DNA of 50,278 bases from assembly GCA_018817005.1 (NCBI GenBank), contig JAHIUF010000041.1, positions 1 through 50,278 on the forward strand, written 5' to 3'. The position numbers and the translations under genes are program-made. The stretch comes from Nanobdellota archaeon (GTDB lineage Archaea; Nanobdellota; Nanobdellia; Woesearchaeales; GCA-2686295). This document shows, piece by piece, positions 23,986-31,364 of this stretch; position 1 is the stretch's first letter, and the number at the start of each line of letters is the position of its first letter. The notes below the pieces were generated by a model. The model was not told the DNA's origin. It saw only the letters and a list, made by a program, of their open reading frames with translations, and searched no databases.

Positions 23986-25647
23986 TTATTTATTATTAAT
24001 TACTTGAATAAGATTAGTTAGATTGAGTTCAAAACAAGAAACAGGCATTTCTATATTAAACTGTTCAAGTACCTCGGGACTAATTTCACCAATATATGCT
24101 ACTGCTTTTTTTCCGACAAAAACTCTTCCAACACGTCCATTTATGAAAGATGGGTGTTTTGTTTCTTCAATAGCACAAGTCATGTCTAAGGCAGAAAATA
24201 ATATGTCAAGAATCTGTTTTATAGTTGTAAAGTTAACATCAGGGCCACATAAAGCAACTCCCAGCCTTGAGTTTTCTTCCACATTAGTTTCTTCTTTTGT
24301 ATTTGGTTTGAATACAGTCCCTATTTCGAATATGTTTTGAGGATATTCTTTGTTTGTATTTCTAGATAATATTTGCATTAAACTTGGAGTAATCCAGCTT
24401 CTTAAAACACTATATTCGCTTGTGCTAGGATTTTCTAACTCTATGACTTCTGATTTAAAACACATTTTTTCATTATGTTCATTAATGCTTGTTAAATGAT
24501 AAGATATTGTTTCTAAGATGCCTGTTCCCACTAGGATGTTTGCAATTTTTCTTTTAAAAACTTCAAATGAGTTTTCTTTTCCAATCGTTGAAACATTTGG
24601 AATTTCAGGTTCAAAATTATCATATCCATATGCAATAGCAATATCTTCTGCAATATCTATTTGATGTAAAATATCAGTTCTATAAGCAGGAACAAGTACT
24701 TTTTTATTTTCATATCCTAAACCCATTTTTTCAAGCAATATTTTTATCTCTTTTTCAGAAAGTTTTAGTCCAATCAATCTATTTACATAGTTAAGGTCTA
24801 GTTTCCATTCGACAGGATTAAGGTTTGGTGTGATTATCTTTTTCTTTTTATATAAAAGTTCCATTTGATAGATTTCTCCACCCATATCTGCAAGTGCAGT
24901 CACAATAATATTTAAACATTGATTTAAAGATTTAAAATCAAAACCGCTACATTCTATAAATACTTCTTTTGTGTTTTCGTTAATCTTTCCGGTTTTATGA
25001 GAATTTATTATTGGTGGCATAGATAGTATTTCATTTTTTGAATCAATAAAAATTGGAAAAACAGCTTTTCCTTCTAAAAGGTGTCCGTAATCTCTACCTG
25101 CAGGGTGTTGACTTAATATTTGAAGACCAGTCATTTCTCTTGGTGATTCTAATGGTTGAAATCTTATTTCATTAGGTTTTTTTGCAGTGTATGTTATGGG
25201 TGTTTTTATTTGTTCTAATGGATAAATACCTATTGCGAGTTTTTTTCTGTTTCGTCCAAGACTAACATGTAATTTTTCTTGTATTTGAATTATCTCACGA
25301 ATTTTTTCATCATTAAAAGTAAGATTTTTTACAATTGCACAAGCAGTATATGGTCTTACTTTTTTTACAGAATCATTAATTATTACTTGATAATCTTTTA
25401 ATGGTTTTTTCACACAATATTTTTTTAATCCAGTTTTTACTCCTATGAAACTTGAAAGAGCTCTTGCAAATCCTTGTTCTGAAAGCATATCTGGTCTGTT
25501 TGGAAAAACTTCAACAACAACCTCGTTGCCTTCTATTTTGTCCAGATCAGTTCCTAGCATGCTAATTCGGTCTTTAAGTAATTCTAAAGATAATTTTTTT
25601 CCAATAAGTTTTTCTAATACTTTTAAATTAAGGTTTACTGTGGGCAT
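23986..25647 (-). CDS. pheT: Phenylalanyl-tRNA synthetase beta subunit
   Basis: 'VEVFPNRPDMLSEQGFARALSSFIG', 'ECSGFDFKSLNQCLNIIVTALADMGG', 'YRTDILHQIDIAEDIAIAYGYDNF'. Confidence 0.96.
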   Translation of the reverse strand: MPTVNLNLKVLEKLIGKKLSLELLKDRISMLGTDLDKIEGNEVVVEVFPNRPDMLSEQGFARALSSFIGVKTGLKKYCVKKPLKDYQVIINDSVKKVRPYTACAIVKNLTFNDEKIREIIQIQEKLHVSLGRNRKKLAIGIYPLEQIKTPITYTAKKPNEIRFQPLESPREMTGLQILSQHPAGRDYGHLLEGKAVFPIFIDSKNEILSMPPIINSHKTGKINENTKEVFIECSGFDFKSLNQCLNIIVTALADMGGEIYQMELLYKKKKIITPNLNPVEWKLDLNYVNRLIGLKLSEKEIKILLEKMGLGYENKKVLVPAYRTDILHQIDIAEDIAIAYGYDNFEPEIPNVSTIGKENSFEVFKRKIANILVGTGILETISYHLTSINEHNEKMCFKSEVIELENPSTSEYSVLRSWITPSLMQILSRNTNKEYPQNIFEIGTVFKPNTKEETNVEENSRLGVALCGPDVNFTTIKQILDILFSALDMTCAIEETKHPSFINGRVGRVFVGKKAVAYIGEISPEVLEQFNIEMPVSCFELNLTNLIQVINNK

Positions 25648-25648
25648 T

Positions 25649-27181
25649 TTATTTTATCCAATCTTTTATTTCTCTTAATTGTTTTAAATCATTTTTGTAA
25701 AGCTCTCTGATATCATTTATTTTGAAAAATTCAAGTATTATTCTGTCAAATCCAGGCCCCCAAGCAAGCACAGGAATATCAATTCCAAGAAGGGGTTTTA
25801 CAACTTCAGGTCTGAATATGCCTGCACCTCCAAGTTCAAACCAGGTTTTATGAATTGGGTGTAATACATCTATTTCAACACTAAACTCAGTATATGGAAA
25901 GTATGCAGGTCTAAATCTTGCTTTTTCATATCCCATTTTTTTAAAAAATGCTTTTAAATAACCTAAGAGATGTCTGAAATTAGCGTTTTTATCTATGACA
26001 ATTCCTTCTGTTTGATTAAATTCGAAAAGGTGAGACCAGTCTAAGGTTTCGTTTCTAAAACATTTTCCTAGAGCAAAGAATTTTTTTGGAATATCCTTTT
26101 TACTTAGTTTTGCAAGAGTCTGAGCTGAAAGACAGGTTGTGTGTGTTCGAAGAACATTTTTTTTTGATGTTTCTTCATCCCACTCATATTGCCATCCTTT
26201 ACTATTCGTAGTCCACCCATTCTCGTGTGTGTTTTTTATTTTGTCAATAAATTCTTTTTTTGGAAGCTTTCCTGTTGCTGGTTTTTTGATAAAAAAAGTA
26301 TCTTGAAGATCTCTTACCGGATGATCTTGTGCTGTGAATAATGCGTCAAAGTTCCAAAAGGAGGTTTGTAGAAGGTTTCCAGTCATTTCTTCAAAGCCCA
26401 TATCAAGCCAGATTCTTCTAGCATAATCAATTGCTTGGTTTACAAAATGTCTTTTTCCCCTAGTTATTTTAGGAACGTTTATACTGACGTCGTAAGCTCT
26501 AAATTCTTTGTTTTTCCAGGATTTATCCTTAAGTATTTTTGGAGTTAAACGTTCAATAACTTCTTTTGTAGAAACACCTTTTTTCTTTACTTCTTCTCCA
26601 AGAATAGTTAGTTTGATTGTTCTTATTTTTTTAACATTTTTTTTTATTATTTCTTTTCTTTTAATTAGGTTTTCAAAAGCGAATATTTCTTCAGGTTTTA
26701 AAGAGTCTAATTCTATTGGAAAATCTTTTTTTAAGAATTGTTCTTCTAGAAATTCTTTTTCTAACAGTTTTTTCCCTTGTTCTGTTAATGTTATTATTAG
26801 TTCTTGTTCTTTAGTTATTGCTATTGCAGCTTTTTTTTTTAAGGAACCAATACAAATATTTATTTCTTCATCTTCAAGTTTTGCTTCTTTTTTTATTTCA
26901 CTAATTTTATTTTTACTTCTTGTTGCTTTTAGAAATCTTTTTTCAGGCAAACCTTCTTTTTTATATTTAACACCATTTTTATCTAATTCAATCAGTTCTT
27001 TTATTTCTTCATCAATTGTTATAATATTCTTATTTCCAAGCCATTGTATGGCTCTTGTGATTTCAACTTCTTTTAAGCCAGTATTTTTTTGTAATTCTGA
27101 GAACAAGATTTCTTTTTTAAGATGTGAAAGTGTTTTTATTTCTAAGGGGTGTAATTTCTTTATGATTGTATTTATGTTCAT
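25649..27181 (-). CDS. pheS: Phenylalanyl-tRNA synthetase alpha subunit
   Basis: 'FTAQDHPVRDLQDTFF', 'LGKCFRNETLDWSHLFEFNQTEG', 'FRPAYFPYTEFSVEI', 'ELGGAGIFRPEV'; N-terminal wHTH repeats. Confidence 0.96.
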   Translation of the reverse strand: MNINTIIKKLHPLEIKTLSHLKKEILFSELQKNTGLKEVEITRAIQWLGNKNIITIDEEIKELIELDKNGVKYKKEGLPEKRFLKATRSKNKISEIKKEAKLEDEEINICIGSLKKKAAIAITKEQELIITLTEQGKKLLEKEFLEEQFLKKDFPIELDSLKPEEIFAFENLIKRKEIIKKNVKKIRTIKLTILGEEVKKKGVSTKEVIERLTPKILKDKSWKNKEFRAYDVSINVPKITRGKRHFVNQAIDYARRIWLDMGFEEMTGNLLQTSFWNFDALFTAQDHPVRDLQDTFFIKKPATGKLPKKEFIDKIKNTHENGWTTNSKGWQYEWDEETSKKNVLRTHTTCLSAQTLAKLSKKDIPKKFFALGKCFRNETLDWSHLFEFNQTEGIVIDKNANFRHLLGYLKAFFKKMGYEKARFRPAYFPYTEFSVEIDVLHPIHKTWFELGGAGIFRPEVVKPLLGIDIPVLAWGPGFDRIILEFFKINDIRELYKNDLKQLREIKDWIK

Positions 27182-27234: not shown

Positions 27235-28044
27235 TTAAGCCTTTTTTAAAGGCTTCATTGCTTTCCAAGCAAGTTCAAATAAATCTTCTAAAGCTGATGC
27301 AAAAAATGGTGTGTTTATCCAGATACCTATATCATATGTTGGATGAACTTCTGTATCATCCATAACCATAAACACAACTTCTTTGCCATCTACAACTGTA
27401 AATCTTGCTTTTTTGTCTGTATGTCTAACTTCTGCAAGTCCAGCTAGTGCTTTTGCGGCTTCTTGTGTTTCTTTTGATAGAGGTGCTGCAATTCTTATTG
27501 TTACACCTCTTTTTTTGACTTCTTCAAATACTGCTTTTAAGCCTTCGGCTTTTCTTAACAGTCCTTGAGATGTAGTCATTATGGTTACAGTTTTTTCTGC
27601 ATTCTTTATAGTTAATTCTAAGTGGTTGTAAAGATTATGTCTTCCTCTAAGTGAACCTGAAAGATCTGATGGTTCTATAAGCTCCACACCTTGTGTATGT
27701 AATGAGTTTAATTCACCTAAAACATCAGTAGACTTTAACTTTTCAAGTCTATCAATTCTTTCATTTGCGTCCATTTTGACGTTTTTCTTTACTCTTTCTA
27801 CAACTTCATTTGGTGGAACAGCTATATATTTTATTGGCTTTCCAATTTTCATTATTACAAAACCTTTTTTTTCTAGGCTTTCCAATACATCGTAGCTTCT
27901 GCTCCTCGGGACATTTGCAATATCACTAAGTTCTCCAGCAGTACTTACACCTCTGGATAACAGTGCAGCCCATATCTTTACTTCGTAAAGATTTAACGAA
28001 AAATATCTCCGTAGTTTCGATAGAAACTCTTCTTTTACTATCAT
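27235..28044 (-). CDS. TrmB family transcriptional regulator (paralog 2)
   Basis: wHTH nearly identical to paralog 1: 'LYEVKIWAALLSRGVSTAGELSDIANVPRSRSYDVLESLEKKGFVIMKIGKPIKYIAVPP'. Confidence 0.88.
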   Translation of the reverse strand: MIVKEEFLSKLRRYFSLNLYEVKIWAALLSRGVSTAGELSDIANVPRSRSYDVLESLEKKGFVIMKIGKPIKYIAVPPNEVVERVKKNVKMDANERIDRLEKLKSTDVLGELNSLHTQGVELIEPSDLSGSLRGRHNLYNHLELTIKNAEKTVTIMTTSQGLLRKAEGLKAVFEEVKKRGVTIRIAAPLSKETQEAAKALAGLAEVRHTDKKARFTVVDGKEVVFMVMDDTEVHPTYDIGIWINTPFFASALEDLFELAWKAMKPLKKA

Positions 28045-28178
28045 TTTTCTAACCCCTCCAAAAGTAGGATTAATCACCCCTTTTTAATTTCAAAAACGCA
28101 TAACTACTATTTATATGTTACTATTTTTTACGCTTTTCTAATAGTCAAAACAAGCATATTTATAAACTTTACTGTTAA

Positions 28179-29027
28179 TTATTCTATCTTTCCGACGACA
28201 AAGAACTCGTTCAAGAACTCTATTTTCTGATATTTAACTTTGTTTTCATTTAATATTTTATAAATCCATGATCTTTTTCTTTCATCAATAACTTTTTTCC
28301 CACCAAGTGTTTTTTTTGAGAAGGATATAACTAAAAAATTTGAATTTATTTTTCTAATGATTTCTTTTGAAAGATTCCTTTTTACAGTTTCTAATGAATC
28401 AAGAAGTTTAAACATAAAACAAACATCAACTTTGTATTTTTCAAGAGCTTGATAATTTGTAGTTAAGTCTAAAGAAATTGTTTTTCCTGTTATTTCTTCT
28501 TGATCAAAAAATCTCTTTAAAAAATCAGTATCTTTTATGTTCATGTCTGAAGCGATGTAATATGGTTTACAACCAAGATAATGATAACTTAAGGGGTTTA
28601 ATCCACACCCCAAATCAAGAATTTTATTAGGTTTTCCCGTGATTTCGAATATTTGTTTGTAAACCTCTGAGTAAATAGGAATTCTTTCTTTAGATGATTG
28701 ATGTAAAGATAATAATTTGTTTATAATCTGTTCTCGTTCAGTTTTTACTTTTGCATTTTTAAGTTCGTTTAAAATAAAGTCTTTTTTTGAGTAATCTTTT
28801 GTTATAAAAACACCATAAATTTCTCGAAGCGATTTTCTCATTTCTTTTATAACAAATTTATATTCTTTACTTTTTTTATTACAATTATTCTCCTCTAATT
28901 TTCTTTTTAAGATAGGTTTTTTCTTTAAAAACAAGAGTAGTTTGGTTTTAACAAACTGTTCATCAAGGTTTTTTAATTCCTTTTTTGAAATTATATCTTT
29001 AGTTATATTTGAGATTAATTCTTCCAT
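28179..29027 (-). CDS. ArmA/RmtB/FmrO-like 16S rRNA methyltransferase family protein
   Basis: 'LLSLHQSSKERIPIYSEVYKQIF' (cf. ArmA 'HSSTNERVATLNDFYTYVF'), SAM motif 'ILDLGCGLNPLSY', 'YKVDVCFMFKLLDSLE', 'NFLVISFSKKTLGGK'; overlaps pelota by 13 bp. Confidence 0.78.
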   Translation of the reverse strand: MEELISNITKDIISKKELKNLDEQFVKTKLLLFLKKKPILKRKLEENNCNKKSKEYKFVIKEMRKSLREIYGVFITKDYSKKDFILNELKNAKVKTEREQIINKLLSLHQSSKERIPIYSEVYKQIFEITGKPNKILDLGCGLNPLSYHYLGCKPYYIASDMNIKDTDFLKRFFDQEEITGKTISLDLTTNYQALEKYKVDVCFMFKLLDSLETVKRNLSKEIIRKINSNFLVISFSKKTLGGKKVIDERKRSWIYKILNENKVKYQKIEFLNEFFVVGKIE

Positions 29028-30064
29028 CTTAAAATCCCTGCAATTCCTGATAAAGAGTCTAATCTTTTTGAAGGTTCATCAAAACTTATAATTTGAATGA
29101 TTCCTTGCATATTTTCACAAAGTTTCATCAATTTTTCCAGTTCTATATAGTTGCCTTTCTCTTTTCTTTGTTGCATATATGAGAAACTAACAAATAATTC
29201 TTTTACCGCACCAGCCTCTATCTTTTCTTTTGTTTCATTAAATCCGTAACAAGCATTATCATTAGATATTTCTTTTAGAAGTTTTTCAATAAGATTAATT
29301 TCTTTTGAAACATTATCTTTTTCAAGGGCCTTTTGAAGTTCAGGTCTTTTTATAACTTCATTAATTGAATTTTTGTTCACACTAGAAACTGTTGATTGGA
29401 TAATCTTTTTTTTCAGTTCTTCAGAACATTCTTTTATAAGATACTCTTTCCAAAAGCTAGGGCTTGCAGTGATTATTGTTTCAAAGCCATCTGTTTTTTC
29501 AAGTTCTTCAATTTTAGTTATTATTTCTTTGTAAAATCCACCTTTTGCGATATGATTCTTATCTTTTTTTTGTACGTCGCCAACAAGATGAGCAATGATT
29601 TCAAAACCCTGACTTTTAAGCTTTGCAAAATATGCTTCTTCTCTATCAAAAACAACTATTAACAAATTAATTTTTATATTTTGTACTGCCTCATTTATTC
29701 TCTCTAATTGAAATTTGAGCCACTGCTCTTTTTTTATGGTGATAACTGTGTTTACTTCCACATTAAAACTATGATGACTGCCTTTGGAAATATCATCTGG
29801 ACCAAGGGTTATGATTCCTAAAACCTTTAATATTTCAGAATACTGATGAAAATCAACTTTTTCAACTTGTAATTCTAAAAACATCGTTTTTCTAACAACT
29901 TTTACATTTCTATCGTCGCCAGATCCAATTTTTATTTTTCTTTCAGTCTTACCTTTAACAAAATCACTTGGTTCGATTAATTGGCTAAGATACCACAAAT
30001 CATTGATATTTTCAACCTGAATCGTTAATTCTCCTTTTTTCAATTGCTTCTTTATAAGTTTCAT
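29015..30064 (-). CDS. pelA: aPelota, mRNA surveillance / ribosome rescue factor
   Basis: 'ENINDLWYLSQLIEPSDFVKGKTERKI', 'VVFDREEAYFAKLKSQGFEIIAHL', 'IITASPSFWKEYL', 'CYGFNETKEKIEAGAVKELFVS'. Confidence 0.94.
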   Translation of the reverse strand: MKLIKKQLKKGELTIQVENINDLWYLSQLIEPSDFVKGKTERKIKIGSGDDRNVKVVRKTMFLELQVEKVDFHQYSEILKVLGIITLGPDDISKGSHHSFNVEVNTVITIKKEQWLKFQLERINEAVQNIKINLLIVVFDREEAYFAKLKSQGFEIIAHLVGDVQKKDKNHIAKGGFYKEIITKIEELEKTDGFETIITASPSFWKEYLIKECSEELKKKIIQSTVSSVNKNSINEVIKRPELQKALEKDNVSKEINLIEKLLKEISNDNACYGFNETKEKIEAGAVKELFVSFSYMQQRKEKGNYIELEKLMKLCENMQGIIQIISFDEPSKRLDSLSGIAGILRWKN

Positions 30065-30173
30065 AATATAATACTAAATTAATACTACTGAACTTTTTGA
30101 GATTTAAAAGTTTTTATCTTTTCCTTTTATAAAACCAATAAATTTAAATATGATGATTGCAGTATTTAACCAT

Positions 30174-31364
30174 ATGTCGGGAAAGAAAGGCCAAAGTGCA
30201 TCAAACACCGGAGCTCTAGTGATTATAATTGGCTTATTAATTATTCTTTACATTTTATTTTTACCCCCAAGTGAGAGAGCAGAACTTCTTGGTGAAGACA
30301 ATGAATCTGATGATGACAACAATAACGATTTGGACATTAATACGACTTTGTTATCAGAACACATTGGTCGATTGGATTATTTGAGGTATGACAATAAAAT
30401 ACATGACATCCCATCTTTTCGTATAATTACTCAAACTGAAGGAATTATTCTTAAATCGATTAATTCATTATATGTAAAATCGGGTTCTTTTGAAAAGATA
30501 TCTAAAAACTTAACCTTTGAAATTAATAAGGATTTGACAAAAAACACATTATTATCTTTTAATTTGAATGAAGCAAGAGGAAGATTGATAATAACGCTTA
30601 ATGGTCATGAAATATTCAGTGCAGATCTTAACACAGGAACTGCAAAGCCAATTTCTTTGTCACAAGAATATCTAGAATCAAAAAACCTTCTTTCCTTTAA
30701 AGTTTCAAATACCGGAATTGCATTTTGGAAAATAAATGAATACTCAATGGAAAATCTATTAATAACTGCAGATGTGACTGATCTTTCTCAAAGTGAAAGT
30801 CTTCAATTCTTTTATTTATCTGATGTTGAAGTATTAAATATGGATGATAGCACTTTAAGATTTTACGCAGACTGCGACTTAGATACTGTTGGTCCACTTA
30901 TAATAAAATTAAATGGTGTAAGAACATTTTCATCAACAGCTGATTGTGGAATTTACAACTCATTAATTCTCGATAAGAATTTATTACTTGAAGGAAAAAA
31001 TCAATTGGGATTTTTAACATCAAAAGGTTCATATCTTATAGATAGAGTTAGTGTAAGCACACAACTTAAAGAACTTAATTATCCGGTGTATTATTTTGAC
31101 ATGGATGAAGATTTGTTTGATGAGGATGGTGAGAAACTGAAAGAAGATTACAACATAATGCTAAGATTATCATTTGTAGACAATGAAGAAAAAAGAGCTG
31201 AGATAAAGATTAATGGTATCAGAACTAATCTTAGAACAGATGAACTAGAATATGAAAGAGAGATTGATTGGTATGTTCTCAGCGGATCCAATTCAATCGA
31301 GATAATACCTCAAACTTTACTTGAAATAAGAGAGATGCTTATTGAAGTTGAAGAAGAGGATTAA
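30174..31364 (+). CDS. Surface protein with N-terminal type IV-pilin-like (class III) signal and repeated beta-rich domains
   Basis: 'MSGKKGQSASNTGALVIIIGLLIILYILFLPPSERAELL' then acidic linker and long hydrophilic ectodomain. Confidence 0.65.
   Translation: MSGKKGQSASNTGALVIIIGLLIILYILFLPPSERAELLGEDNESDDDNNNDLDINTTLLSEHIGRLDYLRYDNKIHDIPSFRIITQTEGIILKSINSLYVKSGSFEKISKNLTFEINKDLTKNTLLSFNLNEARGRLIITLNGHEIFSADLNTGTAKPISLSQEYLESKNLLSFKVSNTGIAFWKINEYSMENLLITADVTDLSQSESLQFFYLSDVEVLNMDDSTLRFYADCDLDTVGPLIIKLNGVRTFSSTADCGIYNSLILDKNLLLEGKNQLGFLTSKGSYLIDRVSVSTQLKELNYPVYYFDMDEDLFDEDGEKLKEDYNIMLRLSFVDNEEKRAEIKINGIRTNLRTDELEYEREIDWYVLSGSNSIEIIPQTLLEIREMLIEVEEED

Follow-up and report, generated by a model that had tools for sequence, protein, structure and literature searches.

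A G1405-type 16S rRNA methyltransferase gene overlapping pelota in an archaeon, native and probably housekeeping

The bacterial enzymes ArmA, RmtB, RmtC, RmtF and Sgm methylate N7 of G1405 in helix 44 of 16S ribosomal RNA (rRNA). In this study, a gene of the same type, here called fmrO, was analyzed in a 50,278-nucleotide stretch of a Nanobdellota archaeon (contig JAHIUF010000041.1, referred to as the window), where it overlaps pelA, the gene for pelota/Dom34. Introduced G1405 enzymes disturb nearby housekeeping methylation in E. coli, alter fidelity and cost fitness (PMC12406665); the N7-methylated base (m7G1405) is therefore not neutral in that host. Direct RNA sequencing has been applied to 16S modifications at G1405 of the same species (PMC6522004). 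Among archaea, N. equitans and Nst1 were stated in 2013 to encode a homologue of rRNA (guanine(1405)-N7)-methyltransferase, and the enzyme was described as common to Bacteria and nanoarchaea and missing from other archaea then sequenced (PMC3655853). By that description, the homologue belongs to the same family and the same archaeal group as fmrO; the report concerns two genomes only and gives no linkage to pelA or to Pno1/aIF1A. Searches of the available literature on DPANN with FmrO, and on Woesearchaeota with aminoglycoside methyltransferases, found nothing beyond this paper. The nanoarchaeal enzyme was already known in 2013, and its breadth and operon contexts seem to be unreported.

The open reading frame (ORF) of the window belongs to the G1405-N7 16S rRNA methyltransferase (FmrO/Rmt/ArmA/Sgm) family:

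28179–29027, minus strand: fmrO, a 282-amino-acid G1405-type 16S rRNA (guanine-N7) methyltransferase, from Pfam, NCBIfam, PDB sequence and fold matches

The ORF has an ATG start and no internal stops. Its product matched Pfam FmrO (PF07091) at 79.2 bits against a cut-off of 27 (E 4.4e-22). Eight NCBIfam Rmt models also matched, the best being the general model NF000466 (139.4 bits, 1.3e-40). A sequence search of the PDB placed Sgm at the top (1.9e-22), followed by RmtC (1.7e-17) and RmtF; RmtB was matched as well. The three-dimensional structure was predicted with AlphaFold on an alignment of 38 archaeal members, with a mean pLDDT (predicted local distance difference test) of 95.1. When this model was compared with the PDB by Foldseek, ranks 1–16 were all G1405 methylases (Sgm, RmtC, RmtF, RmtB and ArmA; E 2e-16 to 9e-10), and the next-ranked match was another methyltransferase at E 1e-6. 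The fold match included both the Rossmann methyltransferase core and the N-terminal region, known as the 30S-docking part in bacterial G1405 enzymes. The likeness to Sgm, RmtB, RmtC, RmtF and ArmA is thus one of full-length fold, at a fold-aligned identity of 21–25%. An earlier sequence-only reading had assigned the ORF to this family from its motifs; all the quoted motifs were found in the translation, and the profile, sequence and structure searches agree with the assignment.

The archaeal members were aligned with six bacterial enzymes to compare their residues. The main sites are the following:

28683–28703, minus strand: HQSSKER motif, residues 109–115, with R115 aligned with RmtC R111
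28593–28625, minus strand: S-adenosylmethionine (SAM)-binding motif I, KILDLGCGLNP, residues 135–145, from the alignment
28407–28409, minus strand: K207, aligned with RmtC K204

S111 and R115 are present in 97–98% of archaeal members and retained in the six bacterial enzymes. In SAM motif I, D138 (99%), G142 (100%) and N144 (98%) are almost invariant among archaeal members, and D138 and N144 are present in every bacterial enzyme compared; the same is true of K207, found in 98% of archaeal members. The window protein also carries DVCFMFKLLD (residues 201–210) and ISFSKKTLGGK (residues 234–244). R115, D138, N144, D201, K207 and E274 are common to the archaeal members and the six bacterial enzymes, and the common SAM-binding and catalytic positions are 85–100% conserved across archaeal members. 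The likeness to Sgm, RmtB, RmtC, RmtF and ArmA therefore extends to the SAM motif, HxSxxER, the catalytic lysine and the C-terminal glutamate. R252 is present in 89% of archaeal members and missing from the six bacterial enzymes.

The 16S rRNA of the source genome contains the target base G1405 together with C1496 in helix 44, and both bases were also found in the 16S genes of 20 relatives, giving 21 genomes read. A1408 is present in the source genome. The pair 1409–1491 is C-G in drug-sensitive bacteria. It is A-U in the source genome and C-G in none of the 21 genomes.

The distribution of the family was surveyed in 371 genomes of the phylum at a threshold of E 0.001. A match was found in 173 of them, nearly always as a single copy, and no internal stops occurred among the matches listed. 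Sampling outside the phylum consisted of 14 control genomes, of which four are archaeal, and none gave a match. A scan of a genome collection with the alignment returned 430 relatives, of which the best 80 were kept; their titles point to DPANN archaea or to archaeal bins that carry another name or none at a finer level. The same scan with the single protein found no relative.

A tree of 149 sequences, including the six bacterial enzymes, was built by a quick method with a midpoint root, and its deep branches are weak. The bacterial enzymes cluster together (support 91), and within the archaea the FmrO members sort by family. One archaeal family has second copies that sit beside the bacterial enzymes (support 98) and were probably acquired from bacteria; the loci concerned are L201, L022 and L030, in genomes G083 and G273. 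Two FmrO matches also occur in genome G323. Nearly all other archaeal sequences stand apart from the bacterial enzymes in this midpoint-rooted tree with its thin sampling of bacteria. Across 20 genomes, FmrO identities correlated with PelA identities (Spearman 0.69, with none of 2000 permutations as high), a correlation partly due to physically linked pairs. Mean identity was 42% for FmrO and 46% for PelA, so FmrO diverges about as fast. Since the family is present in 173 of the 371 genomes, mostly as one copy, in a separate clade and with pelota-like divergence, fmrO is native to the archaeon, as the sequence-only reading had proposed, and vertically inherited. No mobile or antibiotic-cluster context and no recent transfer was found for the gene. 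In contrast to Sgm, the Rmt enzymes and ArmA, to which it is only 21–25% identical, the window protein lies in a separate clade and below the NCBIfam equivalog cut-off, and its gene is archaeal, chromosomal, vertically inherited and located beside translation genes.

The neighbours of fmrO in the window are chromosomal core genes according to Pfam:

29015–30064, minus strand: pelA (pelota/Dom34), the upstream gene of the pair (TIGR00111, 224.7 bits, cut-off 177.65)
29015–29027, minus strand: 13-base-pair overlap of the pelA end and the fmrO start, from the sequence
27235–28077, minus strand: trmBL, a TrmB-like transcriptional regulator downstream of fmrO (Pfam TrmB, 2.2e-18)
25649–27181, minus strand: pheS, next downstream in the conserved backbone (Pfam tRNA-synt_2d, 1.1e-79)
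23986–25647, minus strand: pheT, the end of the backbone (Pfam tRNA_synthFbeta, 4.7e-47)

The ORF and its overlap with pelA are real, as first described, and the pelA product is a full-length pelota by its score above the TIGR00111 cut-off. The start codon of fmrO is supported by the identical 13-base-pair overlap at 10 of the 23 other loci with linked pelA. On the other side of pelA, the window encodes a protein for which Pfam gave no confident match (30150–31364, plus strand; best E 0.14). This protein neighbours pelA, mostly in divergent orientation, in nearly all relatives read, both with and without fmrO.

Gene neighbourhoods were compared at 141 distinct fmrO loci. The gene is divergent from a signal peptidase, identified from its sequence only, at 24 loci, follows pelA on the same strand at 23, stands behind Pno1/Dim2 or aIF1A at 15 and behind a small membrane protein at 8; the remaining loci are varied. 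The identities of Pno1 (arCOG04150) and aIF1A were confirmed by NCBIfam, and from a reading of the sequences the Pno1 cluster appears to include Nmd3-, DUF424- and aIF2-beta-like neighbours. Several of the deepest archaeal branches show the Pno1/aIF1A context, a hint that this arrangement is the older one. In the tree, the loci linked to pelA fall essentially on a single branch, apart from L066, where the linkage occurs inside a Pno1-linked clade; L066 is possibly a second, independent joining of pelA and fmrO. In two genomes without fmrO (G012 and G014), the gene directly after pelA is trmBL, and pheS comes next. Four genomes with fmrO elsewhere (G015, G020, G041 and G046) likewise have trmBL directly after pelA, with pheS next in G020 and G041. 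From the intact pelA-trmBL order it follows that fmrO was either inserted into or lost from a pelA-trmBL-pheS backbone already in place. The coupling to pelA claimed by the sequence-only reading thus holds for the overlap, which is conserved in the archaeon's own family and several related ones, and fails as a general link, since it is absent from most loci and nearly confined to one branch.

We consider it likely that fmrO encodes a native housekeeping decoding-site methyltransferase of DPANN archaea, G1405-N7 in specificity, and is not an acquired resistance gene, with the pelA link reflecting co-expression. The housekeeping reading follows from the presence of fmrO in about half of the sampled genomes, often beside translation genes. 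By homology to ArmA, RmtB, RmtC and Sgm, the SAM-dependent enzyme would dock on the 30S subunit and methylate N7 of the universally conserved G1405. The methyl group would be a lineage-specific housekeeping mark, placed during or after 30S maturation and probably tuning decoding or subunit quality. In the window's clade, fmrO has pelA on one side and trmBL on the other, and both co-transcription and translational coupling with pelota are probable; this pairing would be co-expression with a translation gene, not a dedicated rescue pathway. The Pno1/Dim2 and aIF1A neighbours point to 30S maturation and to translation genes being expressed together. A broader proposal, plausible and put forward tentatively, is that m7G1405 may be native to a large part of the archaeal phylum and made in 30S maturation with Pno1/Dim2 and aIF1A, the bacterial and archaeal enzymes being two old branches of one family. 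The locus is probably a housekeeping one, an unusual setting for the FmrO family. If so, a mark of high-level aminoglycoside resistance would be a normal part of the ribosome across a large archaeal phylum that is mostly uncultured, which would bear on the origin of the resistance enzymes and on how the decoding site tolerates m7G1405. Metagenome surveys would also have to be cautious about scoring archaeal fmrO genes as resistance determinants.

Several observations weigh against this housekeeping role. The 139.4-bit score falls short of the NF000466 equivalog cut-off of 250 bits, and the protein is therefore classed as a divergent member of the FmrO family at large and no Rmt equivalog. Roughly half of the phylum's sampled genomes have no match, so the modification is dispensable, and many fmrO copies lie in contexts unrelated to translation. 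Among the genomes read, carriers and fmrO-less genomes showed no consistent difference at positions 1405, 1408, 1496 and 1499; because fmrO-less genomes share these decoding-site bases, no rRNA co-change marks the modification. The literature searched gave no m7G measurement at 1405 for any DPANN archaeon.

The low fold-aligned identity to the bacterial enzymes, and archaeal-specific residues such as R252, would also be expected if the archaeal clade had kept the fold and switched to another rRNA or tRNA guanine. This is rather unlikely, given that the catalytic positions and the N-terminal region are retained and G1405 itself is present. The family and fold shared with known resistance enzymes, together with the patchy distribution, could instead indicate a true resistance gene shielding archaeal ribosomes from the aminoglycosides of neighbouring bacteria. 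We judge this unlikely: inheritance is vertical, the gene is single-copy in a separate clade and linked to translation genes in deep lineages, and the 1409–1491 pair indicates a drug site that is already imperfect.

The sequence-only reading had further tied the decoding-site modification to ribosome quality control, so that fmrO would work with pelota in rescue and its methylation would mark or control rescued ribosomes. The retention of the overlapping genes across several archaeal families and the apparently independent linkage at L066 favour such a role. It is nevertheless improbable and was not upheld: general linkage or co-occurrence with pelA was not found in the surveys, the two genes being linked at 23 of 141 loci, mostly in one clade, and pelota occurring in 58 of 60 relatives against 19 for fmrO. 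The pelA-trmBL pair is unbroken without fmrO in carriers and non-carriers alike, and other lineages pair fmrO with Pno1/Dim2 or aIF1A. The coupling, probably kept within the clade for co-expression, does not show joint function. It is very improbable that fmrO substitutes for KsgA/Dim1 as a lost checkpoint of 30S subunits. In favour of such a substitution, no KsgA match at E 1e-15 was obtained in 292 of the 371 genomes, the source genome included. The counts (both genes in 43 genomes, fmrO only in 130, KsgA only in 36, neither in 162) gave no association between fmrO and KsgA absence, with a Fisher p of 0.13 and an odds ratio of 1.5 in the opposite direction. With no trade-off across the 371 genomes, fmrO as a KsgA replacement was rejected.

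The nearly universal KsgA/Dim1, a dimethyltransferase acting on A1518/A1519 of 16S rRNA, resembles the proposed FmrO activity in that it modifies the 3' part of the 30S rRNA late in maturation; it belongs to another family and modifies another base, and its presence is unlinked to fmrO. N. equitans is known to be without KsgA/Dim1-type dimethylation (PMC7897474). The relatives read retain the GGAA loop in helix 45 despite the widespread absence of KsgA. A further feature of the 16S genes concerns E. coli position 1499, which is C (AAGTCGTCACAAGG) in all 21 genes read (L211–L230 and L238, with L225 being the source genome). The site of the widely used 1492R primer has A at this position, so the primer would mismatch in the source genome's order.
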